Assembly (NCBI GenBank): GCA_018971835.1
Contig: JAGWZW010000029.1
Location: 1 to 38,694 of the forward strand
Direction of reading: 5' to 3'
Source: Alphaproteobacteria bacterium
GTDB taxonomy: Bacteria > Pseudomonadota > Alphaproteobacteria > Micropepsales > Micropepsaceae
DNA: 38,694 nt
Below the pieces are notes generated by a model that was not told the DNA's origin, did no database searches, and saw only the letters and a list, made by a program, of their open reading frames with translations. Below, piece by piece: positions 1-27,324 of the stretch. A program made the translations under genes and the position numbers. How positions within the stretch are numbered: position 1 is the first letter of the stretch; every line of letters begins with the position of its first letter.

Positions 1-119
1 ACTGGATGTTCTTTTCCTCCGCCAAGGCGGAGCGCGAGCTGGGCTACCGCGCACGGCCCTATAGGCAGGCTCTGGACGATGCGCTGTCGTGGTTCCGCGG
101 AGCCGGATATCTGAAATGA
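1..119 (+). CDS. hpnA: HpnA, hopanoid-associated sugar epimerase (C-terminal fragment)
   Basis: This is the last 38 codons of a gene that begins before the window; the reading frame starts at base 3 and stops with TGA at 117-119. The peptide contains FFSSAKAERELGYRARP and ends with WFRGAGYLK, which matches the C-terminal end of the NAD-dependent epimerase/dehydratase HpnA, where a lysine-rich segment precedes an ELGYRPRP-like motif and a WFR..GYL tail. Its stop overlaps the start of hpnB (ATGA at 116-119), as expected for the first gene of an hpnABCDE operon. The catalytic part lies outside the window, so the name rests on the tail motif and on the neighbours. Confidence 0.8.
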   Translation, partial: WMFFSSAKAERELGYRARPYRQALDDALSWFRGAGYLK

Positions 120-2981: not shown

Positions 2982-4234
2982 GCGACGGCCGTGTCTTCAT
3001 CGTCGGCGGCGGGCTTGCCGGGCTTTCCGCTGCCGTGGCGCTGGCGGCGAAGGACGTCTCCGTCACACTGATCGAAGGCACGGGGCAAGCGGGCGGGCGC
3101 TGCCGTTCCTATTTCGATGCCACGCTCGGCCAGGTGATCGACAACGGCAATCACCTGCTGCTCTCCGGCAACCACGCCACACACGATTACCTGCGCACCA
3201 TCGGCGCCGCCGACAAGCTCGCCGGGCCGGAACGTGCGCGTTTTGCTTTTGCCAATGTCAGAAGCGGCGAACGCTGGACCATCGCGCCCAATGACGGGCC
3301 GCTGGCCTGGTGGGTGCTGGCAAGGAACCGCCGGGTGCCCGGCTCCAGCTTGAGCGAATATCTTTCGCTGCTGAAACTTCTGGCGCCCGGCAAGGGCAAA
3401 CGCATCGACGAAGTGATCGCGTGCCGCGGACCGCTGTGGGAGAAGTTGCTGCATCCGTTCCTGCTGGCTGCGCTCAACACCGAGCCGCAAAGTGCCAGCG
3501 CCGATCTGGCTGCCGCCGTGATCCGCGAGACGCTGGCCAAGGGCGGCAAAGCCTATCGCCCTCGCATCGCCACGCCACACCTGGGCGCAGCCTTCATCGA
3601 ACCGGCGCTCGCCTATCTCAAAACCAAAGGCGCAGAGGTGCAATTCGGCCGGCGGCTGCGCGCCATTGCCTTTGACGACAAGCGCGCCGCCACGCTCGAA
3701 TTCACCGACGGACCGCTGGCGCTGGCGGCAATGGACCGCGTGATCCTCGCCACACCGGCCTGGGTGACGACGGAGTTGCTGCCCGGCACGCCGGCGCCGA
3801 CGGAGTTCCGCGCCATCGTCAACGCGCACTTCGTGGCCGTACCGCCCAAAGACGCCGCTGCGATGGCAGGCGTGATCGGCGGCACTGCGGAGTGGGTCTT
3901 CGCTTTCCATGACCGGCTCTCCGTCACGGTCAGCGGCGCAGACCGGCTGGTCGACACCGATCGCGAATCCCTGGCCAAGCTGCTGTGGCGCGACGTGGCC
4001 GCCGTGCATGGCCTTGCGCCGGAGCTGCCGCCCTGGCAGATCGTCAAGGAACGCCGCGCCACCTTCGCCGCCATGCCCGCACAGAACGCGCGCCGCCCCG
4101 GCGCCCGCACAAACTGGACAAACCTTATACTGGCGGGCGACTGGACGGACACCGGCCTGCCCGCCACCATCGAGGGCGCGGTGCGCTCCGGCCAGCGCGC
4201 GGCGCAATTGGCGCGCGCCGCCACATCCGTATAA
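2978..4234 (+). CDS. hpnE: HpnE, hydroxysqualene dehydroxylase
   Basis: The 418-residue FAD-dependent amine-oxidase-like protein reduces hydroxysqualene to squalene, the last step of the HpnCDE route. An N-terminal dinucleotide fold is clear (VFIVGGGLAGLSAA, with GGGLAG at residues 10-15), followed by an acidic second-strand end and GRCRSYFD. The C-terminal FAD motif reads LILAGDWTDTGLPATIEGA. The start at 2978 makes an ATGA overlap with hpnD; an upstream in-frame ATG at 2900 would add 26 residues before the nucleotide-binding fold and is unlikely. A 24-base gap separates it from shc. Confidence 0.93.
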   Translation: MSDGRVFIVGGGLAGLSAAVALAAKDVSVTLIEGTGQAGGRCRSYFDATLGQVIDNGNHLLLSGNHATHDYLRTIGAADKLAGPERARFAFANVRSGERWTIAPNDGPLAWWVLARNRRVPGSSLSEYLSLLKLLAPGKGKRIDEVIACRGPLWEKLLHPFLLAALNTEPQSASADLAAAVIRETLAKGGKAYRPRIATPHLGAAFIEPALAYLKTKGAEVQFGRRLRAIAFDDKRAATLEFTDGPLALAAMDRVILATPAWVTTELLPGTPAPTEFRAIVNAHFVAVPPKDAAAMAGVIGGTAEWVFAFHDRLSVTVSGADRLVDTDRESLAKLLWRDVAAVHGLAPELPPWQIVKERRATFAAMPAQNARRPGARTNWTNLILAGDWTDTGLPATIEGAVRSGQRAAQLARAATSV

Positions 4235-4258
4235 TCGAGGGGCAGGACGGGGACCGGC

Positions 4259-6208
4259 ATGGATCAGGTTTTGACGCTCGACAACGCAGAAGTGGAAAAG
4301 CTGATCGCGGACGCCACCGCGGCGCTGCTGAAAGAGCAGAAGGGCGACGGCCACTGGGTCTATGAACTCGAGGCCGACGCCACCATTCCGTCCGAATACA
4401 TCCTGCTGGTGCATTATCTGGGCGAAGTGCCAAACCTCGAACTGGAACGCAAGATCGGCGTCTACCTGCGCCGCATTCAGAGCGCCGAGCACGGCGGCTG
4501 GGCGCTGTTCCACGCCGGCAGCTTCGACCTCAGCGCCACGGTGAAGGCCTATTTCGCGCTCAAGATGATCGGCGACGATATCGCTGCACCGCACATGACG
4601 CGCGCGCGCGAGGCCATCCTGGCGCATGGCGGGGCGGACAAGGCCAACGTTTTCACCCGCATCCAGCTGGCGCTGTTCGGCGAGACGGATTGGAACAACA
4701 CGCCCACCGTGCCGGCGGAGCTGATCCTCTTGCCGCGCTGGTTCCCGATCCATCTGTCCAAGATGAGCTACTGGGCGCGTACGGTGATCGTACCGCTGCT
4801 GGTGCTGCAGGCGCTGAAGCCACTGGCGCGCAATGTGCGCGGCGTGCATGTGCCCGAGCTGTTCCTGCCCAAAGGCGAGCACGCAGCCAGTCGCGCGCCG
4901 CATCAAAGTCGCCTCTGGGCGGCCTTCTTCGGCGCGCTGGACTGGATCCTGAAGCGCGTCGATCCGGTGTGGCCCAAAGGTTTGCGGAAGCGCGCCATCC
5001 AGCGCTGCATGGCGTTCGTCACCGAGCGGCTCAACGGCGAGGACGGCCTGGGCGCCATCTATCCGGCGATGGCGAACAGCGTGATGATGTTCGACGCGCT
5101 GGGCTATGCAGAAAATCATCCGGACCGCGCCATCGCGCGGCTATCGGTCGAAAAGCTCCTCGTCATCAAGGACGAGGAAGCCTATTGCCAGCCCTGCGTC
5201 TCGCCGGTGTGGGATACGGCGCTGGCATGTCACGCCCTGATGGAAGCGGGCGACGAGCACGCCGCTGCCTCCGTGGCGCAGGCCCTGCAATGGCTGAAGC
5301 CGCGCCAGGTGCTGGACGTGGCGGGCGACTGGGCGGAGGAACGCCCCGGCGTACGCCCCGGCGGCTGGGCCTTCCAGTACAACAACGCCCACTATCCTGA
5401 CCTGGACGATACCGCCGTGGTCGCGATGGCGCTTCACCGCGCGGGCGAGCAGGTGGCGCCCGGTGCCGATTACAGCGAAGCCATTGCGCGCGGCGCCGAA
5501 TGGATCAAGGGGCTCCAGAGCAGGAACGGCGGCTACGCGGCCTTCGATGCCGACAACACCTATCACTACCTCAACAACATTCCCTTCGCCGATCACGGCG
5601 CGCTGCTCGATCCGCCGACCGAGGACGTCACTGGCCGCTGCATCGGCCTCTTGGCGCAGCTCGGCGAGAAGCCCGACAGCCCGTACATCAAGGCGGCAGT
5701 GGATTATCTGGCACGGGTGCAATTGAAGGACGGCAGCTGGTTCGGCCGCTGGGGCGTCAACTACATCTACGGCACCTGGTCGGCGCTGGCCGGGCTGAAC
5801 GCCGTGCCGGTCGATCCGCAAACGCCGATGATCCGCAAGGCGGTGGAGTGGCTCGTCGCCATCCAGAACGAGGATGGCGGCTGGGGCGAGGACTGCGACA
5901 GCTACAAGCTCGATTATTCCGGTTACGAGCGCGCGCCCTCCACCGCTTCGCAAACAGCATGGGCGCTGCTCGGCTTGATGGCGGCCGGCGAAGTGGATCA
6001 CCCAGCCGTGGCGCGCGGCATCGCCTATCTGCGCGACACGCAAGAAGAAGACGGGCTCTGGGGCCAGGAGCACTATACCGGCGGCGGTTTCCCGCGCGTC
6101 TTCTACTTGCGCTATCACGGCTATCCGAAATTCTTCCCGCTCTGGGCGGTGGCGCGCTATCGCAACCTCAAGGCCAGCAACACGCGCCGCGTGGTATATG
6201 GGCTCTAG
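4259..6208 (+). CDS. shc: Squalene-hopene cyclase
   Basis: The 649-residue class II triterpene cyclase converts squalene to hopene (and hopanol) at the inner membrane. The catalytic acid motif DLDDTA is at residues 381-386, equivalent to the DXDDTA motif of characterised cyclases. Several QW repeats are visible (for example QKGDGHWVYE near the N-terminus, QLKDGSWFGRWG and QNEDGGWGED in the second half). The C-terminal end FPRVFYLRYHGYPKFFPLWA is typical of the family, and the length matches it. The start at 4259 is preceded by a purine-rich stretch (GGACGGGGACC) that can serve as ribosome binding site. The stop TAG is followed at once by the hpnG start codon. The gene is also called hpnF. Confidence 0.97.
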   Translation: MDQVLTLDNAEVEKLIADATAALLKEQKGDGHWVYELEADATIPSEYILLVHYLGEVPNLELERKIGVYLRRIQSAEHGGWALFHAGSFDLSATVKAYFALKMIGDDIAAPHMTRAREAILAHGGADKANVFTRIQLALFGETDWNNTPTVPAELILLPRWFPIHLSKMSYWARTVIVPLLVLQALKPLARNVRGVHVPELFLPKGEHAASRAPHQSRLWAAFFGALDWILKRVDPVWPKGLRKRAIQRCMAFVTERLNGEDGLGAIYPAMANSVMMFDALGYAENHPDRAIARLSVEKLLVIKDEEAYCQPCVSPVWDTALACHALMEAGDEHAAASVAQALQWLKPRQVLDVAGDWAEERPGVRPGGWAFQYNNAHYPDLDDTAVVAMALHRAGEQVAPGADYSEAIARGAEWIKGLQSRNGGYAAFDADNTYHYLNNIPFADHGALLDPPTEDVTGRCIGLLAQLGEKPDSPYIKAAVDYLARVQLKDGSWFGRWGVNYIYGTWSALAGLNAVPVDPQTPMIRKAVEWLVAIQNEDGGWGEDCDSYKLDYSGYERAPSTASQTAWALLGLMAAGEVDHPAVARGIAYLRDTQEEDGLWGQEHYTGGGFPRVFYLRYHGYPKFFPLWAVARYRNLKASNTRRVVYGL

Positions 6209-6871
6209 ATGCTCGTCATCGTCACCGGGATGCAGCGCGAGGCGCGGATCGTGGGCCGCGGCGGCGAAACGGTGATCTCCGGCGGCGATGTCACGGGCCT
6301 TGCCGGAAAGATCGAACGCGCCATAGCCGCGGGTGCGCGCGCCGTGGTCAGCACCGGCATCTGCGGCGGATTAAGCAGCGATCTGACGGTCGGCAGCCTG
6401 GTGATTGCGGACACGATCGTTGCAGAGGGCGAACGCATCGGCGCCGATGCGCGCTGGGCGGACGAACTGGCCGCGCTGTTGCCGCACGCCACGCGCGGCA
6501 CGATTGCCGGAAGCGATACCATCGTCGCCGCGGCGGCAGACAAGGCTGCGCTCCAGCGCGCGACCGGCGCGCTTGCCGCCGACATGGAATCGCATGTGGC
6601 CGCGCAGGTAGCGACGGCGCATGGCCTGCCCTTTGCGGCGCTACGAGTGGTTTCGGATGCGGCGGATCAGTCGCTGCCGCCGGCCGTAGCCAATGCGCTC
6701 AGACCAGATGGCACACCGCGCCTCGGTGCCGTCCTGGCCTCGGTGGCGGCACACCCCGCGCAAATCCCCGCCCTCATCCGCACTGCGCGGGACAGCGAGC
6801 GGGCCTTCGCGGAATTACTCCGCTGCCTCGACCGCGTCGGCGTTGCCTTTGCCTGCCCGTATCTCGGCTAG
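6209..6871 (+). CDS. hpnG: HpnG, adenosylhopane nucleoside phosphorylase-like enzyme
   Basis: The 220-residue protein belongs to the purine nucleoside phosphorylase/MTA nucleosidase superfamily. HpnG removes adenine from adenosylhopane to give ribosylhopane, a precursor of bacteriohopanetetrol-type hopanoids. Family signatures include VVSTGICGGLSSDLTVG (substrate-binding glycine-rich loop), the central ADMESHVAAQVA (a DMES element like that binding ribose in this fold) and a later LRVVSDAAD segment. The ATG follows the shc stop codon without any spacer, so translation is probably coupled. Its last 57 bases (6815-6871) lie antisense to the 3' end of hpnH, the enzyme acting one step earlier. 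Confidence 0.9.
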   Translation: MLVIVTGMQREARIVGRGGETVISGGDVTGLAGKIERAIAAGARAVVSTGICGGLSSDLTVGSLVIADTIVAEGERIGADARWADELAALLPHATRGTIAGSDTIVAAAADKAALQRATGALAADMESHVAAQVATAHGLPFAALRVVSDAADQSLPPAVANALRPDGTPRLGAVLASVAAHPAQIPALIRTARDSERAFAELLRCLDRVGVAFACPYLG

Positions 6872-7963
6872 CTTGTGCTCGACATGGCGGGAGAAGACGT
6901 ATTCCGCCGGCCGCTGGTTGGTAAGCGGAATGTCGGGTGCCATCGGCCCCTCGGTCTTCACACCGCGCCGGGCGATGGGAATCATCTTCCAGGGATGGCG
7001 CACGGAATCGGCCACCGCCGTGCCTTCGAAACCGCAATGGACCATGCAGTTGGCGCATTTTTCGTAATTGCCGACGCCGTACTTGTCCCAGTCCGTTCCC
7101 TCCATCAATTCCTTGAAGGTCTTCGCATAGCCTTCGCCGACGAGGTAGCAGGGCTTCTGCCAGCCGAACACCGTGCGCGCCGGCATCGACCATGGCGAGC
7201 ACTCATAGGTCTGGTTGCCCGCCAGGAAATCGAGGAACAGTTCGGACTGTGTGAACTCCCACTTCTTGCCGCCGTTACCGCGAGCAAAGATGTCGCGGAA
7301 CAGCTGCTTGGTGCGCTCGCGATTGAGGAAGTGTTCCTGGTCGGGCGCGCGCTCATAAGCATAACCGGGCGAAACGGTGATGCCGTCCAGCCCCATCTCC
7401 ATCATCTCGTCGAAGAAGGCAGCCACGCGCGCTGGATCGGCGCCGTTGAACAGCGTGCAGTTGATCTGGGTGCGGAAGCCCTTGGACTTGGCCAGCTTGA
7501 TCGCCGCCACGGCCTTCTCATAAGTGCCGTCCAGGCAGACGGACTTGTCGTGCATCACCTTGTCGCCGTCCAGATGGATGGACCAGGTGAAATTGGGATG
7601 CGGCCGGTAATCGTCGATCTTCTTGGCCAGCAGCAGTGCGTTGGTGCACAGGATCACGAACTTGTTGCGCGCCACGAAGCCCTTGACGATCTCCGGCATC
7701 TCGCGGTGGAGGAGTGGCTCACCGCCCGCGATGGACACCGCCGGAGCGCCGCATTCGTCGATTGCGGCCATGCAGTCTTCATAGGATAGCCGCTGATTCA
7801 GGATCTCGTCGGGATAATCGATCTTGCCGCAGCCTGAGCAGGCGAGGTTGCAGCGAAACAACGGTTCCAGCATCAGCACCAGCGGATAATGCTTGCGCCC
7901 CATCAGGTGCTGCTTGACGACATAGGCGCCGATACGGGCGGCCTGGGCAACAGGAATGCTCAC
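6815..7963 (-). CDS. hpnH: HpnH, radical SAM adenosylhopene synthase
   Basis: The 382-residue radical SAM enzyme adds the 5'-deoxyadenosyl group of SAM to hopene (diploptene), the first step of side-chain extension. The iron-sulfur motif is [11 protein letters not shown], with cysteines at residues 38, 42 and 45 (CX3CX2C). A GGEPLLH segment matches the SAM-binding GGE motif. A later cysteine cluster ([15 protein letters not shown]) fits the HpnH C-terminal region. The start is GTG at 7963, overlapping the ispH stop as GTGA, with GGAG eight bases upstream inside ispH; the usual N-terminus MSIPVAQ and family length support it. It is cotranscribed with ispH, another iron-sulfur enzyme, and converges on hpnG. 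Confidence 0.95.
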
Positions 7964-8937
7964 ACTTCACTCCGTTCCCGCATCTCGGCCTCGGCCGGGC
8001 TGCGGCTGGATTGCGTTCTCAATTCGGCCGGCAGACGGAAGGCGATGTGCTCCTTCTTGCCGTCCAGTTCCGAAACGTCGAGCGTGCCGTACATCCGGCG
8101 CAGCGTCTCGATCACGTCCAAGACCAGCTTTTCGGGCGCCGAGGCCCCGGCCGTCAACCCCACCGTCTTCTTGCCCTGAAGCCAGGCCGGGTCGAGTTCC
8201 CCCGCATCGGCGATCAGGTAGCTGGGCACCCCGCTCTCATGGCCGATTTCCCGCAAGCGGTTGGAGTTCGAGCTGTTCTTGGCCCCTACCACTATTACGA
8301 TGTCGGCGATCTTGCAAAGCTTGCGCACCGCCGTCTGCCGATTCTGGGTTGCATAGCAGATATCCGAAGTATGCGGACCTACGACGTCCCTGAACTTGCG
8401 CTGCAAAGCCGCAATAATAGAACGGGTATCGTCGATGCTGAGGGTGGTCTGGGTGACGTAGGCCACCTTGGTGTCTTCGGGAATATTGAGGGCCGCCACG
8501 TCCGCTTCTGACGAGACTAGATAAGCCGGCGCGCCCACCTGCCCCATCGTCCCTTCCACTTCGGGGTGGCCCGCATGACCGATCAGAACCAGCGTCCGGT
8601 CCTGGGAGACATAGCGCTTGCCCTGGGAATGGACCTTCGAAACCAGCGGACAGGTGGCGTCCAGCACCGGCAGGCCACGGCCGGCCGCCTCGTCGACCAC
8701 CGCCTGCGCCACGCCGTGGGCACTGAAAATGGTCACGGCGCCATCCGGCACTTCGGTCAGCTCTTCGACGAAGATCGCGCCCTTGCTCTTTAGACTTTCA
8801 ACCACATGGCGGTTGTGGACAATCTCGTGGCGCACATAAACGGGCTTGCCGTATTGATCGAGGGCGCGCTCGACAATCTCGATCGCGCGAACAACGCCCG
8901 CGCAAAAACCGCGCGGCTGCGCCAATATTACCCGCAT
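7960..8937 (-). CDS. ispH: IspH, 4-hydroxy-3-methylbut-2-enyl diphosphate reductase
   Basis: The 325-residue enzyme performs the last MEP-pathway step, reducing HMBPP to isopentenyl and dimethylallyl diphosphate with an iron-sulfur cluster. The three cluster cysteines are at residues 12 (GFCAGV), 96 (DATCPLV) and 194 (ICYATQNRQ). The proton-relay glutamate is E126 in [11 protein letters not shown], and SSNSNRL binds the diphosphate. The start at 8937 follows a strong ribosome binding site (GGAGGGG) and begins with the standard [12 protein letters not shown]; a longer frame reaches 9066 but adds 43 unconserved residues. The stop overlaps the hpnH start. Confidence 0.97.
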
Positions 8938-9099
8938 ACTTCCCCTCCGGTCATGGGCTCTGAGTGCCCGCGTTCCGCTTGGAAACAGCGGATGGCTCTT
9001 AGGCCGCGTATCGCATTGTTTCAGTTTCGGCAAACCGCGTCCAGCTCGCAACAGCTTTCTTGACAACCGGAAGGTGGTGTATCGCGGAAAGCGTGCGAT

Positions 9100-11991: not shown

Positions 11992-12018
11992 CGTCAATCT
12001 ATCGCCGTCAATCTATCG
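11992..12018. repeat. 13-base tandem direct repeat at convergent gene ends
   Basis: CGTCAATCTATCG occurs at 11992-12004 and again at 12006-12018, with one base between (period 14). It lies immediately after the dxs stop; the second copy covers the stop codon (12013-12015) of the convergent MlaC-family gene. It looks like a recent small tandem duplication; no function is evident. Confidence 0.6.
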
Positions 12019-12681
12019 GGACGGCCGGGAAGCATCGAGCGTCGCCGTCATCTCCTTGAGATGGGCGGTGAGTGCAGGCACGCTTTGGCCATGCGCGGCG
12101 AGAAAGCCGCCAAAATCATCGCGCTGCGCAAGACCCATCCAGACCCCGGCGATCGAAGCATCGACGACAGCAAATTTGCCACCCTCGTCCAGCACGCGGA
12201 ACATCACCTGTACCGGATCGGGCTCTTGCGGGTCGGCAGGATCGACCAGCACCGCCGTGACCAAATAGTCGCCCGGCGCGCGCTCGTTCGATGCGGTGAT
12301 TCTCAGCGCCTGACCGCCATATCCGTCGAGGCGCGATTCGTAGCTGGCGACCGTAAAGGCCGTGAACGCATCGACATAGGCATCAAGATCGGCCTGGGAC
12401 GCCTTGTCCCGTGCAGGGCCCAGATCGAAGAGCCCGACCCTTTTGGCATCCATCAGCCTGAGCAGCAGGTCGCGCACCTGGTCATGCCGCTCTACGTCGC
12501 TGAGCGCCTTGTTTTTCAGGATGGCGATCCCCTGATCGATGCCCTGCTGGACGAACGTCTCGACTGGCGTGGCGGCGTGCGCGACGGCCAAGAATGGAAC
12601 CATCACGACGGCGGCCCCAGGCACAAACCCCACCACCATCAACACGATGCGCAACCGCGCGGCCCAATCATGCTTCGCCAT
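12013..12681 (-). CDS. MlaC/Ttg2D-family periplasmic phospholipid carrier
   Basis: The 222-residue protein starts with a signal peptide (hydrophobic stretch from about residue 11, AHA cleavage motif at 34-36). The mature part follows the MlaC (Tol-Tol-Ttg2) pattern: an N-terminal TPVETFVQQGIDQGIAIL helix, a middle AFTAFTVASYESRLDGYGG segment, a strand rich in VxVxF-type residues and the C-terminal IAGVWMGLAQRDDF. MlaC proteins carry phospholipids across the periplasm between MlaA and an inner-membrane transporter. It lies 39 bases after mlaA on the same strand, so they form an operon. No mlaFEDB genes are visible. HpnM at 13731 is a paralogue with the same core (ANYASNFDGYSG there, VASYESRLDGYGG here). 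Confidence 0.85.
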   Translation of the reverse strand: MAKHDWAARLRIVLMVVGFVPGAAVVMVPFLAVAHAATPVETFVQQGIDQGIAILKNKALSDVERHDQVRDLLLRLMDAKRVGLFDLGPARDKASQADLDAYVDAFTAFTVASYESRLDGYGGQALRITASNERAPGDYLVTAVLVDPADPQEPDPVQVMFRVLDEGGKFAVVDASIAGVWMGLAQRDDFGGFLAAHGQSVPALTAHLKEMTATLDASRPSR

Positions 12682-12720
12682 CGGACTTCCAGAACTGATT
12701 CGGCTGCCAAGACCTCGTTA

Positions 12721-13461
12721 TCAGAAATTCGGGAGGTTCTGGACGTCGGGTTTGCCTCTGCGGATTTGAGCGGCACGATACTGCAGATAAAGGTTGCGGG
12801 TCGTGGCGTAGTAATCGACCGAGGTACGTTCGATGCCCTCCAGCGTGCCGATATTTTGCGCCCTCAGGTCGACGACGCCAAGCAGACCAAGACCGATGTC
12901 GTAATAAATCTTCTCGCGGAAGTTCCAGTAGGTGACGGGGTCCATGAAGATATCCACCACCTTACCCGCCAGATCGCGCGGCGGCGCCGGTCCCAGAAAC
13001 GGCAGCATCAGGAACGGCCCTTCGCCCACGCCCCAGGTTCCCAGCGTGATGCCGAAATCCGTCTCGTGGCTCGGTATCCCCATGTCCGAGGCCACATCAA
13101 ACAAGCCACCGATCCCCAGCGTGGTGTTCACCGTCATGCGACCGAGACTCTGGCCTGCGCGATCCACATCGCCCTGCAGCACGTCGTTGAAGAAGACCAC
13201 CGGGAGGTGGATATTGGTCACAAAATTGTGCACGCCTTCGCGCGCCGGTTCCGGCACTGCGTGGACATAGAACTTGGCCACCGGAAGCATGACGGCCTTG
13301 TCCAGTTTCATGTTGAAATCGAAGATATCCCGGTTGGTAGCCTCATAGGGGTCGTTGTCCGTTGCCGCATAGCCAGACGGATCGTGTGCGCAGCCCGAAG
13401 TCAACAGTCCAATCGCCAGGACCAGGACGACAGAGAATTTTCCCACGGCAAAATTTCCCAC
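12721..13461 (-). CDS. mlaA: MlaA/VacJ-family outer-membrane lipoprotein
   Basis: The 246-residue lipoprotein has a signal peptide ending in the lipobox LTSGC (cysteine 24), followed by DPYEATNRDIFDFN, the hallmark start of mature MlaA (DPxExxNR). Further family segments are NFVTNIHLPVVFFNDVLQGD, GRMTVNTTLGIGGLFDVA and a DFGITLGTWGVGEGPFLMLPFLGP stretch. MlaA sits in the outer membrane and lets phospholipids leave its outer leaflet. Two GTG starts are possible (13461 or 13446); neither has a strong ribosome binding site, and both keep the signal peptide. It precedes the MlaC-family gene and diverges from hpnM, which suggests a joint role with hopanoid trafficking (inference). Confidence 0.92.
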   Translation of the reverse strand: MGNFAVGKFSVVLVLAIGLLTSGCAHDPSGYAATDNDPYEATNRDIFDFNMKLDKAVMLPVAKFYVHAVPEPAREGVHNFVTNIHLPVVFFNDVLQGDVDRAGQSLGRMTVNTTLGIGGLFDVASDMGIPSHETDFGITLGTWGVGEGPFLMLPFLGPAPPRDLAGKVVDIFMDPVTYWNFREKIYYDIGLGLLGVVDLRAQNIGTLEGIERTSVDYYATTRNLYLQYRAAQIRRGKPDVQNLPNF

Positions 13462-13519
13462 CGCGACCGCGCGTCGCGTTTGAAGGCGTTCTCAACAGCC
13501 CAACCAGACCGTCTGCCAT

Positions 13520-13528
13520 AATATAGCA
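13520..13528 (-). promoter_or_regulatory. Possible extended -10 promoter for mlaA
   Basis: On the minus strand the sequence reads TGC-TATATT, an extended -10 element, about 59 bases upstream of the mlaA GTG. The -35 position is poor (CTTAAT with 17-base spacing). This is a sequence match only. Confidence 0.35.
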
Positions 13529-13660
13529 TTCGTCGACAGAGTATTAAGCCCCCCGAACACCGAAAAGGAAAAGAGGGCGGAAATATTTGGCTTGACCGCT
13601 TGTCGCACCCCGTAAAGGCCGCGACAGGGTCGCCGAATCACGAAACTTTCGCCTCATTTC

Positions 13661-13678
13661 TGTCAACAGAATTTGACA
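13661..13678. promoter_or_regulatory. Inverted repeat TGTCAA-N6-TTGACA upstream of hpnM
   Basis: Perfect six-base arms at 13661-13666 and 13673-13678 are separated by CAGAAT. It lies 52 bases before the hpnM start in the divergent mlaA/hpnM region. The right arm equals a -35 consensus, but no good -10 follows at 16-18 bases. It could be an operator acting on hpnM, mlaA or both. Confidence 0.35.
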
Positions 13679-13730
13679 ATGGTACAGTGTGACTGGCGTG
13701 CTTTCTGGAACAGGAACAAATGGAGCGATA

Positions 13731-14405
13731 ATGATCAAGTCCCCGCTGAGTGCCTGTTTGACCGCTCTCGCGCTTGCGGCGGGCGTGTCGGGCCTTTCCG
13801 CCGCTGTCCCCGCCCTGGGTGCCCCCGCCACCGCGACGCCGCCCGCGGCCGAATCGGTCGTGCCCGATCCGGGCGCCAAACAGATCGGCGCGTTTTATGC
13901 CGTGCTGCTCGATTCGATGAAGCACGCCAAGACGGTAGACGTTAACGGCCGCTACAAGATGCTGGCGCCCGTCGTCGATGCCACGTTCGATTTTTCGACC
14001 ATGACCAAGATGACGGTCGGCCCGGACTGGGACACGATGTCGGATGCCGACCGCAAGGCGCTCACCGCCGCCTTCCGCCGCATGACGATCGCCAATTACG
14101 CCAGCAACTTCGACGGCTATAGCGGCGAGAACTTCGTCGTCGACCCCAAGGTGCAGGAGCGGGCCGGCGACAAGATCGTGAGCAGCCAGATGACTGCACC
14201 GGGCAAGGCGCCGATCCCCTTCGTCTACCGCATGACCAAGACGCCGCTGGGCTGGAAGGTGATCGATGTTTTTCTGAACGGCTACGTCAGCGAGGTGGCA
14301 ACCCGGCGCGCCGATTTCGCGTCGACCCTGAAGGCGGGGGGCGCCTCTGCGCTGACGGCAAAGCTGAATGCGCTGACCGACAAGACGCTGGCGCCCGGTA
14401 ACTGA
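13731..14405 (+). CDS. hpnM: HpnM, hopanoid-associated MlaC-fold periplasmic protein
   Basis: The 224-residue protein has a signal peptide (hydrophobic core about residues 8-27, cleavage near 31) and a Tol-Tol-Ttg2/MlaC domain. Conserved parts are QIGAFYAVLLDSM at the mature N-terminus, VDATFDFSTMTKMTVG, FRRMTIANYASNFDGYSG, VYRMTKTPLGWKVIDVFLNG and a final ADFASTLKAGGASALTAKL. HpnM is thought to carry hopanoids or related lipids in the periplasm, working with HpnN. I chose ATG 13731, which has GGAG five bases upstream and precedes the signal peptide; an ATG at 13689 would add 14 residues. Its stop is three bases from the hpnN stop on the other strand. Confidence 0.88.
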   Translation: MIKSPLSACLTALALAAGVSGLSAAVPALGAPATATPPAAESVVPDPGAKQIGAFYAVLLDSMKHAKTVDVNGRYKMLAPVVDATFDFSTMTKMTVGPDWDTMSDADRKALTAAFRRMTIANYASNFDGYSGENFVVDPKVQERAGDKIVSSQMTAPGKAPIPFVYRMTKTPLGWKVIDVFLNGYVSEVATRRADFASTLKAGGASALTAKLNALTDKTLAPGN

Positions 14406-14408
14406 GCC

Positions 14409-17027
14409 TCAGCCGTTGACCTGCCGCGGCGCTGGCAGCCCTTCCCGCGGCAGGCTGTAGGCCAGCAGCGCCGGCAGCACCAGCAGCATCGAAACCAAAA
14501 TCCAGAACAGCGAGATCAGCAGAATCTGGCCCATACTGGCCGTGCCCGGATGGCTGGAAATCGAGAGCGTACCGAACGCCGCTGCAGTCGTCCCAGCGCT
14601 CATCAGGACCGCGCGCGTCAACGGCGACTGCAGCAGATGGCGCCGGCCCTGCCGCCAAGCCATGATGAAGTAGATATCGAACGCCACACCCACACCGAAG
14701 AGCAGCGGCAGCGCGATAATGTTGGCGAAATTGAGCTGAATGCCGGCAACGATGCAGCTTGCTATCGTCAGGATCCCGGCGAGCACCAGAGGGGCCAGCG
14801 CCATCAGGAGATCGCCAAGCCGCCGCAGCGCGATGAACAGGATCAAGGCGATTGAAACGAGCGAGATCACCCCGGCTTCCAGGAAGGCATTGACGATGGT
14901 TTTGCCCGACTCTCGGATAATGATCGGCGTGCCGGTCACATGCGGCGCCACTTTGAGTACGGCGCGGGTGAAGCGATCAAGAACGGCATTGTCATTGGAA
15001 TTGCCGGCGGGGAAAACCTCGACACGATAAAGCCCGTTCGATGTCACCCAGTCGCTCACCAGATCCTTCGGTAACGACTGGAAGCTGACGGGCTCGGGGT
15101 GCAGCGCAGCACGAAGCTGATCCAGCATCGTCTTGAGCCCCGGCACAAAAGCATTGGCCGCGGCGACGCGAACGGCAGGCGCCGCGCCGGCCAGATTGTC
15201 GAGGATACTGGCCAGACGGTCGGCATGCCGGCCCGCCGTGCCCCTGTCTGTCGCTGCGGCCTTGCGCAGAGCCCCGGCCGTCGAACGCAGGCTTGCCACC
15301 ACCTCGTTGTCGCTGGGTGGCGGCGGCATCAAAAAGGGATTGAACGTCGAATCCAGCAGGCCCGCCGCATCCCTGATGACGGCCAGTTTCTCGGCCTGTT
15401 GGTCGGGTACAAACGTATCAATGGTCATGACCTGCGAAACTTCGGGCAGCTTCGACAGGCGTTCGGCCAACTTGTTTGCCGCTGCGCGCGATGGCTCAAG
15501 GACGTTGACCGTGTTCGGCGAGGTCTGCGGATCCTTCATCAGATCAAGCGCGGTCGCCACCGATTCGGAATGACGATTGCGCAGATCCATCGGGTTGGCG
15601 TCAAATCTGATGCTGGGAAACAGCGCGAGGCCCAGCGCTGCAGCCCCTATCGCCGTCAGCAACACACGCTTGGCATGGTGCGTCAGGTAGCGGTCAAGCG
15701 GTTCGAGACGGTGAAATCCGACATCGCGCGCCTCGCTGCGCGCCTTGAGCAGACGCAGCATGGCCGGCAGCGCCGTGATCGAGAGCACGTATGTCACGAT
15801 CATGCCGGCACCGGCGATCAATCCCAGTTCCGCCAGACCGGCATAATCAGTCGGCAGGAAGGAGAAGAAGCCGGCTGCCGCAGCCATCGCCGCCAGCGTC
15901 AACCCGCTGCCGATCCCCGCGCCCGCGTGCGCCAGCGCTTCATGCAGATCCTTCACGCGATAACGTTCCGCGCGATAACGCACGCAGAACTGGATGCTGA
16001 AATCGACACCCAGGCCCACGAACAGCTCGATGAACGCCACCGAGATCACATTGAAGGCGCCGTAGGCGAAAAGGCCGATCGAAGCGGTCATGGCAAGACC
16101 GATGATCAGCGTGGCCAGGATGGCGAGGATTATTCTGACCGACCGCACCGCCAGCCACAGCATCAGGAGCACGGCCGTGGCCATCAGCGTCGCCAGCGTT
16201 CGGCCGTTATGCGTGATGGTGGCAAATTCCTCGTCGGCCATCGGCACCGGACCGGTCAGCCGCACGCGCACGCCCGTCTTGGACGTAAAATCCAGCTTCC
16301 GCGCCGCGGCACGGATCGCGCCGGTCGCGGCCTGGCCCGGCATCAGATCCTGATAGTTCAGCCGGGGCTGGACCTCGATGAAGCGGCGGGTACGCGAAGG
16401 GCCCAATTGGGGGCCGCCCATTAGCGCGCTCCAGCCGAAATAGGCGGGCTTGCCCGCCAGCACATCAGACAACGTTTTGGAAAATGCAGTGATCGGCCCG
16501 TCGATATCCGCAAGCTTGGCTTGGCCGCCTTCGACGCCCAGGAGTGTGGTGGCAAGCGTGCCCATCACCCCGCGCAGGCTTGGGTCAGCCGCCAGGCCAC
16601 CGAGGAACGGTTGCGCCTGGATGAGGCCCTGGGTCGTCTTTTGCACCTCCGCAAGCGGCATCAGTAGAAGGCCCTCATGGGCGAAGAACGGCCCGCCATC
16701 CGGCTGGCGCACGCTGGTGAAGTGCTTGCGGTCGGTCTTCAGCGCGCTGGCCAGCGCATCGGCGGCTTCTGCCGCCCGCTCGGCGGTGGCGCCATCGATC
16801 ACGGCGACGATGAGGTTGTTCTGCTGCGGGAAGCCGGCATCGTAGCGCGCCTCGTCCCGCCGCCAGACCGCGTCCGGCGACACCAGATCGCCGCTATCCG
16901 AATTCATCTTGAAATGCGTGGCCGCATAATCGCCGGCTGCCACGCCCAGCACCAGCGCCACCGCCACGACGATCCAGGCAAATCGGCTCGAGAAACGGAC
17001 AATGGCAGAGACGAAAGACGACAGCAT
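14409..17027 (-). CDS. hpnN: HpnN, hopanoid RND transporter
   Basis: The 872-residue RND/MMPL-family inner-membrane protein has one N-terminal membrane helix (about residues 14-35), a large periplasmic loop, a cluster of helices with the signature FVGLGVDFSIQFCVRYRAER, a second periplasmic loop and a second helix bundle (ALILFIALRRLGDLLMAL, LPLLFGVGVAFDIYFIMAW). This 1+5+1+5 pattern is typical of the family. HpnN moves hopanoids from the inner to the outer membrane. ATG 17027 is preferred over an in-frame codon at 17066, which adds 13 unconserved residues; no strong ribosome binding site is visible for either. It converges on hpnM. Confidence 0.92.
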   Translation of the reverse strand: MLSSFVSAIVRFSSRFAWIVVAVALVLGVAAGDYAATHFKMNSDSGDLVSPDAVWRRDEARYDAGFPQQNNLIVAVIDGATAERAAEAADALASALKTDRKHFTSVRQPDGGPFFAHEGLLLMPLAEVQKTTQGLIQAQPFLGGLAADPSLRGVMGTLATTLLGVEGGQAKLADIDGPITAFSKTLSDVLAGKPAYFGWSALMGGPQLGPSRTRRFIEVQPRLNYQDLMPGQAATGAIRAAARKLDFTSKTGVRVRLTGPVPMADEEFATITHNGRTLATLMATAVLLMLWLAVRSVRIILAILATLIIGLAMTASIGLFAYGAFNVISVAFIELFVGLGVDFSIQFCVRYRAERYRVKDLHEALAHAGAGIGSGLTLAAMAAAAGFFSFLPTDYAGLAELGLIAGAGMIVTYVLSITALPAMLRLLKARSEARDVGFHRLEPLDRYLTHHAKRVLLTAIGAAALGLALFPSIRFDANPMDLRNRHSESVATALDLMKDPQTSPNTVNVLEPSRAAANKLAERLSKLPEVSQVMTIDTFVPDQQAEKLAVIRDAAGLLDSTFNPFLMPPPPSDNEVVASLRSTAGALRKAAATDRGTAGRHADRLASILDNLAGAAPAVRVAAANAFVPGLKTMLDQLRAALHPEPVSFQSLPKDLVSDWVTSNGLYRVEVFPAGNSNDNAVLDRFTRAVLKVAPHVTGTPIIIRESGKTIVNAFLEAGVISLVSIALILFIALRRLGDLLMALAPLVLAGILTIASCIVAGIQLNFANIIALPLLFGVGVAFDIYFIMAWRQGRRHLLQSPLTRAVLMSAGTTAAAFGTLSISSHPGTASMGQILLISLFWILVSMLLVLPALLAYSLPREGLPAPRQVNG
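14420..14454. repeat. Perfect 10-base inverted repeat at the hpnM/hpnN junction
   Basis: CCTGCCGCGG at 14420-14429 pairs exactly with CCGCGGCAGG at 14445-14454 across a 15-base loop. It lies inside the last codons of hpnN and 15 bases after the hpnM stop, so the hpnM transcript would form a GC-rich hairpin there. No U-tract follows, so it is not a standard intrinsic terminator; it may stabilise the 3' end or pause transcription. Confidence 0.4.
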
Positions 17028-17077
17028 GGAAGACCCCGGACGGGTGGCGGCGCACAGACTGCGCATTGCCGCGCCAA

Positions 17078-21779: not shown

Positions 21780-24700
21780 TCAGTAATCCCATTTCCAGGT
21801 CGCGCCGACCGAGCCTTGCGCATTCGCGCCGGCCACCGCGTCCAGCGTGATATGCGGCGTGATCCTGACCTCGACCAGCGCGCTGCCCGCCGTCACGTTC
21901 GCGCCCTGCTTCACGCCGACATAGACCTTGTCGGACAGGTATTTTCCGGCGGTGATGCTGGCGCCGGTACTAGTTCCGGTACTAGTTCCGGTACTAGTTC
22001 CGGTACTGGTTCCGGTACTGGTTCCGGTACTGGTTGTGCCGCTGGATGTTTCCACACGCAGCACGTCGAGTCCGGTAAGGCGGCGCGCGAATGTGAGAAT
22101 GCCGCCCCCGCCCATCAACGAGCCCAAGGTTCCCAACTGGCCGGAAAGCTCCGCAAGCTGCAGAGCTTGAAAACCACTCAGGTGGGGCGTCGATGTGCCG
22201 AAGAACAGCCGGGACAGAATTTCATCCTTCGGCAGCGGCGGGGTGGACGACCAGGCGATCTCCGGTTCCGCCACCGGCCCCTTGGCGGTGACGGTGACCG
22301 TGAGGTCGGTGGTGGAGTCCTGCGCGGTCAGATTGATCATGGCGCCGCCCTTGGCGTTGGCGTCGGCGATCACCGTGCCGCTCTGCAAGGTGAAAACCTT
22401 GCCGATCAACTCCACCTGGCCGCGGACCACGCCAAGGTGGCCGGCGACGTCCGGCTTGGCCACCGTTCCGCCAATCTTGAGCTGGCCGCGCCATTCCGAA
22501 TCAAGCCCATGGCCGCTGACGTAAACCCGGTTCGGCATCGTGATGGAAATATCGAGCGGCGCCTGCGAAAACAGCGATGGCGCGGGCGGTGCAGCCACAG
22601 GCCGCGGCGGACCGTTGATCTCCGTGACCTCGATCTCCGGTACCTGCGGCGGCATGGCGGCTTCGATATCCACGCGCACCGTCGAGGTGCGCAGTTCGCC
22701 GGAAATTTTCGGCGGCGCCTCGCCGGGAAGGTCGAGCGCCACCTTGCCGGAAACGCCGGCGCGGATCTGGTCGGTGCGTAGCAACTCGGCCTTGTCGAGC
22801 GTGACGTCGGCCCGGCCGGTGAAACGGCCGACATCGCCGTTCTCCAGCGCCGCCAGCGAGAACTGCCCGGTGGCCGAGACTTTGCCGCTGTTGCCGTCAG
22901 TGGCAGACAGCTTGAGCGCGACCGTGCTGCCGCCTGCTGCCGTCAGCGAGGCATCGAGCTTCTGAAGAGTTGTCCCGGTTTCGAAGTTCTGGAACTGCGC
23001 GTCCTTCAAAGTGATGTCGCCGGCAAGAATCGGATGGGCGATGTCGCCGTGCGCCGAGAGCGACGCGTTGAGCGCACCGGATAGCGACTGCTCCGCCACC
23101 GGCAGAATGGCGAACAGCCGCTCGGCCCGCATCGCGACATGCAACTGCGCCGAAACCGGCCCCTGCTCTGCCAGCACGGGTACAAAGCTGCCCGCCACGC
23201 GCTGCAAGGGCAGTTGCGCGCTCAGCGTAGCGGGCTCCCCGGCAAGCGCGGTCAGCGTTCCATTCAGCGTGAGCGCCTGCCCGTTCCAATGCGCGGCGAC
23301 ATTAAGATCCGCAGGCAGGATGGCTTTCCTGCGGCGGACGAAGGCAAGTTGTCGTCCTGCGAAAGTCAGATCGGCGCGGGCCGCCTGCGGAGACATGTCC
23401 ACGCTGAGATCAAGATTCAGCAAGCCGTCGGCCTTTTCGCTGGTCAAAAAGGCGGCGGCCGTCGCAGCTGGAAAGTCCTTCAGATGTGCGGAAGCCTTGA
23501 GCGTGCCTTTGCTGCCCTGCGCTGCCAAGGTCAACGTACCGCCGCCAATGGCAAGTTCGCTCGGCTTCAACGCATAGACGCCCTTCGCCATCTGGAATAC
23601 TGCCGGATGCGACAGCGCAACCTTCACGCCATTCCAGACGCCGTCGAACGTCGTCAGGCGCGCTTCCAGTGGATTCAGCCGCGCGCTTGCCGCGACAGCG
23701 AGCGTGTTGATCCCGTCCTTGACCGTGAGCGAGAACCCGCCCCAGCTATCCGGTGCCGGCGACGACGCGCGCACCGTGATGGCCGCCCGCTTCAGCAGAC
23801 CGGCGGCGACATGGTCAAGATCGGCCGTCAGACGTAGCGCCTTGCCCGAGCCGCTGAGCGAAACGGCGCCGGTGCCGGTCATGTCCTGGCCGAGCACGAC
23901 CCCGAGCGGCTTGAGCACATCGCCGGAGAGCGTCACGGCGCCCGCATACGACCCGTTCTGCTGACTGAGCGCGCCGCCGAGCTTGGCCGGGCCCAGCGCT
24001 CCCCTGGCGATCGCGAGCCGCCAGCCATGTTCCAGCGCCTGCAGGTCGGCGTCCAGCGCGACCGCGCCGGCACGAGAGCCCGCCGTCAAAGACACGTCGC
24101 CCGACCAGCGCGCCGCTTTCCGCGCGGTGAAGTACAGTGCCGTGTCCTTGATCGCCTGCCCCGCGATCACCAGCGCCGGCGCGTCCGCGTGCAGCGCGAT
24201 CGCCGGCGCTGCTTCGCTTCCGGTGATCGCGGCATGAAGCGTGAAGGCGCCGGAAACCTCCTGATTGAGAAGCCTGGAAAGCGGCGCAGCCTCGCCGCGC
24301 GTGATGTCGAGATTGGCGGTAAGCGTACCGTTTCTTGCCAAGGTCGCTGCGGCGCTGGCCGTGGCCGCTGCCGAGGTGAGAGTGGCCCGGTCAATGATAT
24401 AGCCCCCGTCCTGCACGCGGATCTTTGCCTCGAGCCGCGCAGCGGAACCGAGCGCTGCGGCGATGCCCGGCCCGAACGTCTCGGGCTTCAAGGCAGTGAG
24501 CACGACAGCTGCGCTGCCATTGCGACCGCGCAGTGTGCCGCCGGCGGCAAGTTCCGCGCCGGAACCGGCCAGTGCCACCTTGAAGGTTACCCGGCCATCG
24601 GTGCCGCGCGTCAGATCGGCCGCGAGTGTTCCATTGGGCTCCGGCAGCCAGCGCGGCTTGAAGGCGGACGCCAGATCGAAGCGGGCGTCGATCCGTGTGG

Positions 24701-25475
24701 CCGTAAAGCCGCGGGCCCGGAAGGTGGCCGCGGCGCGGCCGATGTTCCCGGTGGCGAGCGTGACGGAACCGTTGAAGGCACTCAGTGTTCCGGAGCCAGC
24801 CAGTGAAAGCGTCGTCCGCCCGGCATCCGCCAGCCCGGTCAACGCGGCCGCGAGCGCGCCGTTGTCCGCACCCTGTGCCTGCAGCGACAAGACGCCAGTG
24901 GCATCGACATAACGGCCGCGGAAAGCTAGTTCGCCGTTGCGGGGAACGCAGCGCACCAGCTTCAGCCCGGTCTTGAAACCCGCCGGCCCGATCTGACCGC
25001 TGCCGCCGAGATTGAAACACGCGGCCGGAGCGTCACTGAGCGCCAGAGCGAAACCGCGGACATCGAGCGCGCCGACTTCGATCTCGGTTGTCGGCAGCCA
25101 GGTGGCCTTGGGTGGCGAAGGCTCGGATTGCGGAACGCGGCTCAACCGCCCGCCGCTGATCACCAAGTGGGTCAGCGCCAGCCGGTTGCCCAGCAGAGCC
25201 AGCGCCCGCCAGTCGAGCGCAATATCCTGTGCGGTGAAGAAGGTTCCTTTGGCATCTGCCAGCGCCAGATTGCGGCAATGGAAGGACACCAGCAAATCGC
25301 CGTCCAGGCGGCCGCAGGAGATTTGGTAGCCCAGCGCCCGGCCGACGCCCCAGAGCGCAACACCGTTCAGCGATCCTGTTTCCCATGCCGCCACCAGCGC
25401 AAGCACAAATGCGGCGATGGCTCCCGCCGTCCATTTGAGTGCCTTGCGCGCCGAGCCTGTCCGTCGCTCTGCCAT
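21780..25475 (-). CDS. tamB: TamB, translocation and assembly module inner-membrane component
   Basis: The 1231-residue AsmA-like protein has an N-terminal membrane helix (about residues 12-30, WTAGAIAAFVLALVAAW), a long region of beta-rich repeats and a C-terminal DUF490/TamB domain with ISITMPNRVYVSGHGLDSEW, GGTVAKPDVAGHLGVVRG and an ending GSVGATWKWDY. TamB spans the periplasm and works with TamA in outer-membrane protein assembly or, in current models of AsmA-like proteins, lipid transport between membranes. It starts at 25475, sharing one base with the tamA stop. Residues about 1148-1171 are a GTST repeat (see the repeat at 21964-22035). DNA in the final third is otherwise normal for the gene. 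Confidence 0.93.
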   Translation of the reverse strand: MAERRTGSARKALKWTAGAIAAFVLALVAAWETGSLNGVALWGVGRALGYQISCGRLDGDLLVSFHCRNLALADAKGTFFTAQDIALDWRALALLGNRLALTHLVISGGRLSRVPQSEPSPPKATWLPTTEIEVGALDVRGFALALSDAPAACFNLGGSGQIGPAGFKTGLKLVRCVPRNGELAFRGRYVDATGVLSLQAQGADNGALAAALTGLADAGRTTLSLAGSGTLSAFNGSVTLATGNIGRAAATFRARGFTATRIDARFDLASAFKPRWLPEPNGTLAADLTRGTDGRVTFKVALAGSGAELAAGGTLRGRNGSAAVVLTALKPETFGPGIAAALGSAARLEAKIRVQDGGYIIDRATLTSAAATASAAATLARNGTLTANLDITRGEAAPLSRLLNQEVSGAFTLHAAITGSEAAPAIALHADAPALVIAGQAIKDTALYFTARKAARWSGDVSLTAGSRAGAVALDADLQALEHGWRLAIARGALGPAKLGGALSQQNGSYAGAVTLSGDVLKPLGVVLGQDMTGTGAVSLSGSGKALRLTADLDHVAAGLLKRAAITVRASSPAPDSWGGFSLTVKDGINTLAVAASARLNPLEARLTTFDGVWNGVKVALSHPAVFQMAKGVYALKPSELAIGGGTLTLAAQGSKGTLKASAHLKDFPAATAAAFLTSEKADGLLNLDLSVDMSPQAARADLTFAGRQLAFVRRRKAILPADLNVAAHWNGQALTLNGTLTALAGEPATLSAQLPLQRVAGSFVPVLAEQGPVSAQLHVAMRAERLFAILPVAEQSLSGALNASLSAHGDIAHPILAGDITLKDAQFQNFETGTTLQKLDASLTAAGGSTVALKLSATDGNSGKVSATGQFSLAALENGDVGRFTGRADVTLDKAELLRTDQIRAGVSGKVALDLPGEAPPKISGELRTSTVRVDIEAAMPPQVPEIEVTEINGPPRPVAAPPAPSLFSQAPLDISITMPNRVYVSGHGLDSEWRGQLKIGGTVAKPDVAGHLGVVRGQVELIGKVFTLQSGTVIADANAKGGAMINLTAQDSTTDLTVTVTAKGPVAEPEIAWSSTPPLPKDEILSRLFFGTSTPHLSGFQALQLAELSGQLGTLGSLMGGGGILTFARRLTGLDVLRVETSSGTTSTGTSTGTSTGTSTGTSTGTSTGASITAGKYLSDKVYVGVKQGANVTAGSALVEVRITPHITLDAVAGANAQGSVGATWKWDY
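21964..22035. repeat. Six-unit 12-base tandem repeat in tamB
   Basis: The unit CCGGTACTAGTT (plus strand) occurs three times at 21964-21999, and CCGGTACTGGTT three times at 22000-22035. Each unit encodes GTST in tamB, so gain or loss of units keeps the frame. The two A/G variants are grouped, which suggests expansion by slippage of each version. It falls in a loop between the GLDVLRVET segment and ITAGKYLSDKVYVG of the DUF490 domain. Confidence 0.95.
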
Positions 25476-27253: not shown

Positions 27254-27324
27254 GATGCATACCAAGCGAGCAAATATGGCCGAATTGCGCAAGACCGGTC
27301 ATGACATGGCGCAAATTTGCCACC

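Follow-up and report, generated by a model that had tools for sequence, protein, structure and literature searches.

A hopanoid-export locus with added Mla-type genes in a Micropepsaceae bacterium: a possible, optional HpnN-HpnM-MlaA pathway

Gene content and layout of the locus

The HpnN family of RND transporters moves hopanoids to the outer membrane, and HpnM possibly takes part in hopanoid transport, with an exact function described as elusive (PMC12583986). Here we analysed a 38,694-nucleotide stretch of DNA, hereafter the window (contig JAGWZW010000029.1 of GenBank assembly GCA_018971835.1, an alphaproteobacterium of the family Micropepsaceae), in which hpnN stands in one block with hpnM, mlaA and a further gene of the MlaC family. 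In our reading, the block is an export locus for hopanoids, a group of sterol-like lipids, made up of HpnN and HpnM, its partner with the MlaC fold; a duplicated mlaA-mlaC pair like those of ordinary Mla systems would have joined it, forming a coupled, optional HpnN-HpnM-MlaA pathway. This reading is tentative, and we put its probability at about 0.4. The block consists of the following features.

12013-12681, minus strand: MlaC-family gene; PF05494 87.6 bits (cut-off 26); 222 residues with a signal-like N-terminal stretch
12721-13461, minus strand: mlaA, predicted outer-membrane lipoprotein; PF04333 240.6 bits (cut-off 25); LLTSGC lipobox in the translation
13462-13730, no strand: spacer between the divergent mlaA and hpnM; 269 bases, from the sequence
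13731-14405 (ATG; alternative GTG start at 13689), plus strand: hpnM, hopanoid-cluster MlaC-fold protein, probably periplasmic; TIGR03481 187 bits (cut-off 160.1)
14409-17066, minus strand: hpnN, RND-family hopanoid transporter; NF052374 1107.5 bits (cut-off 1100), TIGR03480 1015.2 bits (cut-off 751.85)

The four genes are present and placed as in the preliminary description of this DNA, each with profile matches above cut-off, and the 269-base gap holds with the hpnM ATG at 13731. The mlaA gene lies upstream of the 12013-12681 mlaC in the same direction, with a spacing of 39 bases. Since hpnM and hpnN are convergent, with only 3 bases between their stops, the four genes cannot form one operon, and a single four-gene operon was ruled out. 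On the mlaA strand, two overlapping promoter-like matches were found at 13547-13518; they are weak (3 in 5.5 kilobases (kb) against a shuffle mean of 1.3).

HpnN exceeds both curated cut-offs across residues 16-869 and has solved relatives in 6wu0 and 5khn. For HpnM, the PF05494 score of 130.8 bits is likewise above cut-off, and the AlphaFold model (predicted local distance difference test, pLDDT, 94.9) matches Escherichia coli MlaC with a Z of 21.7 (2.4 Å over 178 residues) and the MlaC of the OmpC3-MlaA-MlaC complex with a Z of 15.3 (3.1 Å over 175 residues). The model indicates that HpnM has the MlaC fold, a fold that would permit MlaA binding. In Tistlia, HpnM was reported to be 8.1-fold up at low salinity (PMC4545795).

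Recurrence of MlaA and MlaC-family genes beside HpnN

Two samples of HpnN loci were read. For the class draw, 190 genomes of the class were searched for HpnN and 57 loci from 53 genomes were read, window included, leaving out partial HpnN matches in G045 and G008. The named sample comprises the best 80 of 537 confirmed HpnN matches, which is not an even draw and gives names for alpha- and betaproteobacteria only. Short contigs were frequent, which makes all linkage counts minimum values; flanks of 16 kb or more were available at 39 of the 57 class-draw loci and at 50 of the 80 named loci.

In the class draw, MlaA lay within 9 kb of HpnN at 12 of 57 loci, an MlaC-family gene at 39 and both at 11; where the flanks reached 16 kb or more (39 loci), the counts were 9 for MlaA and 29 for the MlaC family. 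The 12 genomes with linked MlaA are spread over nine family codes. Random placement, calculated from approximate genome sizes with a single HpnN target in each genome, would link MlaA to HpnN in 0.43 of the 53 genomes, against the 12 seen. The control gene MlaE, found in 51 of these 53 genomes, lay within 10 kb of HpnN in none, the nearest being about 13 kb away (G060) when coordinates were compared by eye. Near the HpnN of the named sample, MlaA was found at 24 of 80 loci (17 of the 50 with at least 16 kb of flank), the MlaC family at 30 and both at 20.

The arrangements of the linked genes were diverse. In the class draw, mlaA stands directly before hpnN in G004 and G140 and directly after it in G115; it is divergent from hpnM in the window, G027 and G104, divergent from hpnN in G096, and convergent with hpnM in G060, G147, G014, G099 and G097. 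All 14 Burkholderiaceae loci of the named sample have mlaA directly after hpnN, and a co-directional mlaA directly beside hpnN is common to these 14 loci and Micropepsales. Other named taxa with the linkage include Sphingomonas, Sphingobium, Novosphingobium and Rhizomicrobium. The locus whose HpnN showed the highest best-segment identity (L162; 58%, partial) has the window order hpnN, hpnM, mlaA, without the second mlaC. Two Sphingomonadales genomes (G197 and G198) and a metagenome-assembled genome (G194) hold a single PF05494 gene, which adjoins hpnN and mlaA and is of the HpnM type: at L177 and L144 it passes the TIGR03481 cut-off, and at L180 its profile scores favour HpnM over MlaC. Judged from the gene content of these three genomes, any soluble MlaC-family partner that MlaA has there would be HpnM.

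The preliminary description had asked whether the four-gene block is conserved in other hpn-bearing genomes. We saw the exact block only in the window (0 of the other 56 class-draw loci and 0 of the 80 named loci, many of which end early). What does recur, far above chance and in varied arrangements and lineages, is the three-part combination of HpnN, an MlaC-fold protein and MlaA. The uniqueness of the order, together with the genome's own mlaC described below, counts against the four-gene form and leaves the three-part form standing.

Two side observations concern gene number. One locus (L155) has two HpnN-like open frames flanking hpnH, and two genomes have unusually many MlaC-family matches (14 places in G087 and 9 in G254, some of them fragments).

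Separate origins of the linkage

The class-draw MlaA tree (66 of 67 MlaA) rejected a single clade for the 13 hpn-linked MlaA (approximately unbiased (AU) test, p = 1.7e-61), and the hpn-linked label requires 8 changes on it, at least 5 of them forced. After named loci were added in a quick 104-row tree, the label needs 12 changes, at least 4 of which are forced by starred branches. Such changes may reflect either gain or loss, and part of the pattern could be imitated by gene conversion or transfer. This tree and the wider MlaC-family tree (134 rows) were run without bootstrap, after dropping rows contained in others and one long doubtful MlaC row and leaving out several standalone MlaA of named genomes; a careful MlaC tree was built from 43 rows hand-picked from the 134.

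For the MlaC family of the class draw, we used a tree of 92 of the 94 open reading frames from the fetched loci, other PF05494 places not being included. The HpnM proteins make up a single clade of 38 rows, of which 37 come from HpnN loci, a proportion to be read with the fetched loci being mostly centred on HpnN or MlaA, which favours an HpnM-HpnN tie and could miss HpnM elsewhere. The window HpnM, already above the TIGR03481 cut-off, falls within this clade with a support of 100/100. Four rows from HpnN loci stand outside it, namely the 12013-12681 protein and three long branches.

In the Burkholderiaceae, the hpn-linked MlaA and the MlaC-fold neighbours of HpnN group with the family's own Mla proteins, in 22-row clades with a support of 98 for MlaA and 100 in the quick MlaC-family tree, and 100/100 in the careful MlaC tree. 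In the three loci tested, the MlaC-fold neighbour of HpnN reached 69-88 bits with the HpnM model (cut-off 160.1), and one group of betaproteobacterial hpn-linked MlaC and alphaproteobacterial HpnM was rejected (AU p = 1.7e-4, 43-row tree). In the 134-row quick tree, however, the Burkholderiaceae rows, both hpn-linked and from mla operons, attach as one clade beside HpnM (96), which leaves the deep branching order tentative; the hpn-linked MlaC-fold rows are not one clade in either tree, with two Cupriavidus rows apart. These trees are most simply read as separate gains of Mla-type partners by HpnN, one in the alpha- and one in the betaproteobacteria.

Three further loci, L048 (G096), L062 (G067) and L166 (Reyranella), have an MlaC-family neighbour of HpnN outside the HpnM clade. 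That of L166 groups with canonical MlaC, and those of L048 and L062 are long branches of unsure placement; by their positions in the trees, all three are candidates for further separate recruitments.

Descent of the second MlaC gene and of the window MlaA

The preliminary description had pointed to a related core in HpnM and the 12013-12681 product (NYASNFDGYSG and SYESRLDGYGG). The family resemblance is real (28% identity over 160 residues), but this protein is far closer to the MlaC encoded on contig C146 of the same genome (51% over 185 residues). It scored 55.9 bits against the HpnM model TIGR03481, under the cut-off of 160.1, and the trees place it inside canonical MlaC as sister to the C146 protein (99/94 in the 92-row tree, 100/93 in the careful 43-row tree). 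The PRK15117 MlaC equivalog (NF011697) was missed by both MlaC-fold genes of the window (35 and 29.2 bits against a cut-off of 195), and the C146 MlaC likewise had no NCBIfam match at 1e-20.

Two genes preceding the C146 mlaC, metF-like and methyltransferase-like by eye, have counterparts 68-69% identical before MlaC in both same-genus genomes, and one of these genomes (G140) carries mlaA directly before mlaC at the matching locus. The old neighbourhood of the C146 gene, joined with the sister placement, indicates that the 12013-12681 gene is an intact, lineage-specific duplicate of the canonical MlaC of this genome. Its branch is longer (0.77 against 0.20 for the C146 copy in the 92-row tree). 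Decay was considered, but the gene retains as many conserved MlaC columns as the C146 paralog (21 of 29 in each; median 24 and lowest 16 in the other canonical rows). We also rejected the idea of the two MlaC-fold genes as a matched hopanoid pair, the trees making one an HpnM and the other a canonical-MlaC duplicate.

The genome has three copies of MlaA, in the window and on contigs C55 and C85. The window gene shares 85% DNA identity with the C55 copy over 706 bases, confined to the gene, and its product did not reach the NCBIfam MlaA equivalog NF011672 (131 against 375 bits). In the 66-row tree, the window and C55 proteins group with the standalone MlaA of two same-genus genomes (99/90). Each of those two genomes has another MlaA directly upstream of hpnN, and these form a separate pair (99/93). 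The wider quick tree gives the same picture with weaker support (93 and 94), and there the hpn-linked MlaA of L162 joins the window's group. A common lineage of the window mlaA with the hpnN-linked MlaA of its congeners was thus rejected. From these placements, the window MlaA appears to be a newcomer at the locus, one that L162 may share, or else a product of gene conversion; the C55 gene may be the copy rather than the source. C55 might be a contaminant; its composition is near the window's own range and slightly outside it (guanine-plus-cytosine content 63.0% against 65.2%; tetranucleotide distance 0.043 against 0.019-0.038 among window pieces).

In one same-genus genome (G004), a second MlaA lies about 7 kb from hpnN (L019, 584-1321), and it groups with the MlaA preceding mlaC in the other same-genus genome (L111; 97/94).

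A separate Mla set in the genome

Searches of the genome itself placed MlaE and MlaD on other contigs and none on that of the window (C10), in keeping with the earlier remark that the window lacks mlaFEDB. MlaE is on C160 (TIGR00056, 251.2 bits against a cut-off of 212.2; the narrower NF033619 was not reached, 207.8 against 315), where the following gene is an MlaF candidate (best NCBIfam match MlaF, 185 bits against a cut-off of 441). MlaD is on C112 (TIGR04430, 145.9 bits against 135), and the canonical MlaC of C146 and the further MlaA of C55 and C85 complete the list; alphaproteobacteria lack MlaB according to a review (PMC11131202). The Mla set is present in the genome and scattered over contigs. 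The suggestion that a combined system stands in place of a separate Mla is not supported by this scattered set, which has its own mlaC and mlaA.

This set favours another explanation, in which ordinary phospholipid retrieval with MlaFED is the sole task of MlaA and the MlaC copy, and the two lie beside the hpn genes through outer-membrane adjustment to the same stress, joint regulation or inheritance. The layout points the same way: mlaA followed by a co-directional mlaC was seen at 38 of the 52 MlaA loci that were read apart from HpnN loci, and the window pair follows this common layout. The sole linked MlaA of some genomes and the many HpnN genomes without MlaA, both counted below, also fit. 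On the other side stand the co-directional mlaA directly beside hpnN in 14 of 14 Burkholderiaceae loci and in Micropepsales, the separate HpnM clade tied to HpnN, the repeated recruitment seen in the trees, and a functional remark on a VacJ lipoprotein in PMC7157819, which is taken up in the Discussion. We regard this explanation as possible, at odds well short of even.

Other genes of the window

At lower coordinates in the window are the hopanoid synthesis genes, which match NCBIfam models above cut-off.

89-9066, mixed strands: hpnB, C, D, E, shc and hpnG (plus), hpnH and ispH (minus)

A farnesyl diphosphate synthase gene and dxs are also on this contig. On the other side, a two-gene stretch at 21780-27292, about 5 kb from hpnN, includes a TamA/BamA-type gene at 25475-27292 (177.7 bits to TamA, under the cut-off of 625). 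The long gene after it, at 21780-25475, had no NCBIfam match at 1e-20, and we take it by eye to be TamB-like; TamB-type proteins have been linked to phospholipid export. Near the C-terminus of its product is a SGTSTGTSTGT-type repeat run (window about 21900-22000), possibly of variable length. With the TamA-type protein as query, 0 matches were found in the other 56 class-draw HpnN loci, so this neighbourhood is not common to them.

A possible mechanism and its rivals

In the HpnN-HpnM-MlaA pathway that we propose, HpnN lifts hopanoids from the inner membrane, as established for its family. HpnM would collect them in the periplasm, as its fold and neighbourhood suggest, and MlaA, given its recurrent clustering with these genes, would be the docking and insertion point at the outer membrane. 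The duplicated MlaC together with MlaA would return phospholipids to the separate MlaFED pump, and hopanoid delivery and phospholipid removal would be balanced at one place. The repeated pairings suggest, short of proof, that the two lipid routes work together.

Several observations weigh against this reading. A second canonical-type mlaC beside HpnN, as in the window, was found in no other locus read (56 + 80), and the part given to it in the mechanism draws on this one genome; the hopanoid/phospholipid exchange is likewise something that we infer. The usual view is that MlaA and MlaC carry phospholipids inward, the reverse of hopanoid export. In the class draw, MlaA lies away from HpnN in 39 of the 51 genomes having it, and 6 of the 12 genomes with linkage have MlaE and no MlaA other than the linked one, so that it presumably serves the ordinary Mla too.

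Many HpnN genomes also lack the proposed partners. The named genomes were searched for MlaA (72 genomes, L209 being left out as the same assembly as L190) and for the MlaC family (42 without and 26 with MlaA). No MlaA was found in 42 of the 72, and 34 of these 42 also had no MlaC-family gene, among them Bradyrhizobium, Afipia, Rhodomicrobium and two Rhodopseudomonas records, one of which is labelled R. palustris (HpnN 1346 bits); all 26 genomes searched with MlaA have an MlaC-family gene. Five Methylobacteriaceae genomes have one MlaC-family gene each, the locus copy grouping with HpnM, and no MlaA, and in the class draw G076 has HpnM and lacks MlaA. HpnN therefore occurs without both partners, and HpnM occurs without MlaA. 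HpnN was shown to be needed for outer-membrane hopanoids in R. palustris (Doughty 2011, via PMC12583986; strain TIE-1 is outside the genomes searched), and hpnN was found in all predicted-producer genomes studied in that article, hpnM being absent in 13 of 48 with hpnH. An HpnN-MlaC-MlaA route cannot be upheld as general. We find it plausible that HpnN, HpnM and MlaA are linked as an option only, an addition made on more than one occasion and not universal to HpnN transport.

These genomes with HpnM and no MlaA fit another explanation, in which HpnN and HpnM by themselves make up the hopanoid route. MlaA would then be a passenger or provide a spare foothold in the outer membrane, and the second MlaC would be a duplicate relocated by chance, as its absence from all other loci read would allow. 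We consider this quite unlikely, because MlaA is linked to HpnN much more often than chance predicts and apparently became so on several occasions. The general view of transport direction given above favours a cycle in which MlaA and HpnM or MlaC retrieve misplaced hopanoids or phospholipids while HpnN exports, thereby setting the hopanoid level, and the gene set would fit either direction. The position of HpnM beside HpnN and the distance of MlaE from HpnN throughout the 53 class-draw genomes make such inward carriers very improbable to us.

The preliminary description went further and suggested one combined, RND-driven path for hopanoids and phospholipids. In its strongest form, HpnN would be the motor of a chimeric Mla, coupled independently in several lineages to an MlaC-fold carrier and MlaA; outward-moving hopanoids would dock at the outer-membrane site of Mla, in exchange with phospholipid retrieval at MlaA, and the window would add a second mlaA-mlaC pair. 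The recurrent gathering of MlaC-fold and MlaA genes at HpnN and the remark in PMC7157819 speak for such a path, and the uniqueness of the exact block, the genome's own Mla and the descent of the second MlaC against it. We think this version rather unlikely.

Discussion

The association of HpnN with an MlaA-type lipoprotein is partly known. In Burkholderia ubonensis, the second gene of the hpnN operon was described, with reference to unpublished data, as encoding a VacJ-family lipoprotein that probably sits in the outer membrane and is needed for the pump to work (PMC7157819, mBio 2020), and VacJ was listed with HpnCEFGMN in the Burkholderia hopanoid cluster (PMC5472815). An HpnN-VacJ operon is thus already in print for Burkholderia. 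In the literature that we searched on VacJ/MlaA and hopanoid, HpnM or HpnN operons, as far as the available texts go, only Burkholderia reports touched the link, and we came across no account of how widely it occurs, of its separate origins, of the many HpnN genomes that lack it or of the duplicate mlaC. The name HpnM clashes between sources, being the MlaC-fold protein in TIGR03481 and the VacJ lipoprotein in PMC7157819.

Among known systems, the Burkholderia HpnN locus (PMC7157819, PMC5472815; structures 5khn, 6wu0) resembles the window in having the RND protein HpnN beside an MlaA-type lipoprotein and an MlaC-fold gene. However, in the Burkholderiaceae loci read, mlaA comes after hpnN, from which the MlaC-fold gene diverges; in the three tested, that gene is under the TIGR03481 cut-off. 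In the window, mlaA is divergent from hpnM and a second canonical-type mlaC is present. With the Mla system (MlaA, MlaC, MlaFEDB) the window shares the MlaA and MlaC families and an HpnM predicted to have the MlaC fold, but it has no MlaE or MlaD on its contig and an RND pump as neighbour. The sterol transport set BstABC of Methylococcus is comparable as an inner-membrane RND relative of HpnN with soluble binders of a polycyclic lipid, although BstB and BstC belong to other protein families (PMC10942540) and the window HpnN does not reach the BstA model (177.3 bits, cut-off 1400). Mpc of Brucella, a chimeric Mla-Pqi system, likewise joins Mla parts with another transport system, but its title and the start of its abstract mention no RND pump or hopanoids (PMC12436622).

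The name HpnM is to be used with caution, since it denotes different proteins across papers and lineages. The present findings separate lineages in which HpnN has MlaC-fold and MlaA partners from those with neither, such as the Bradyrhizobium and Rhodopseudomonas genomes searched. For the crossing of the periplasm by hopanoids after HpnN, the repeated recruitment of MlaC-fold proteins and MlaA, apparently including an independent case in Burkholderiaceae, names candidates and makes this step testable by single deletions.

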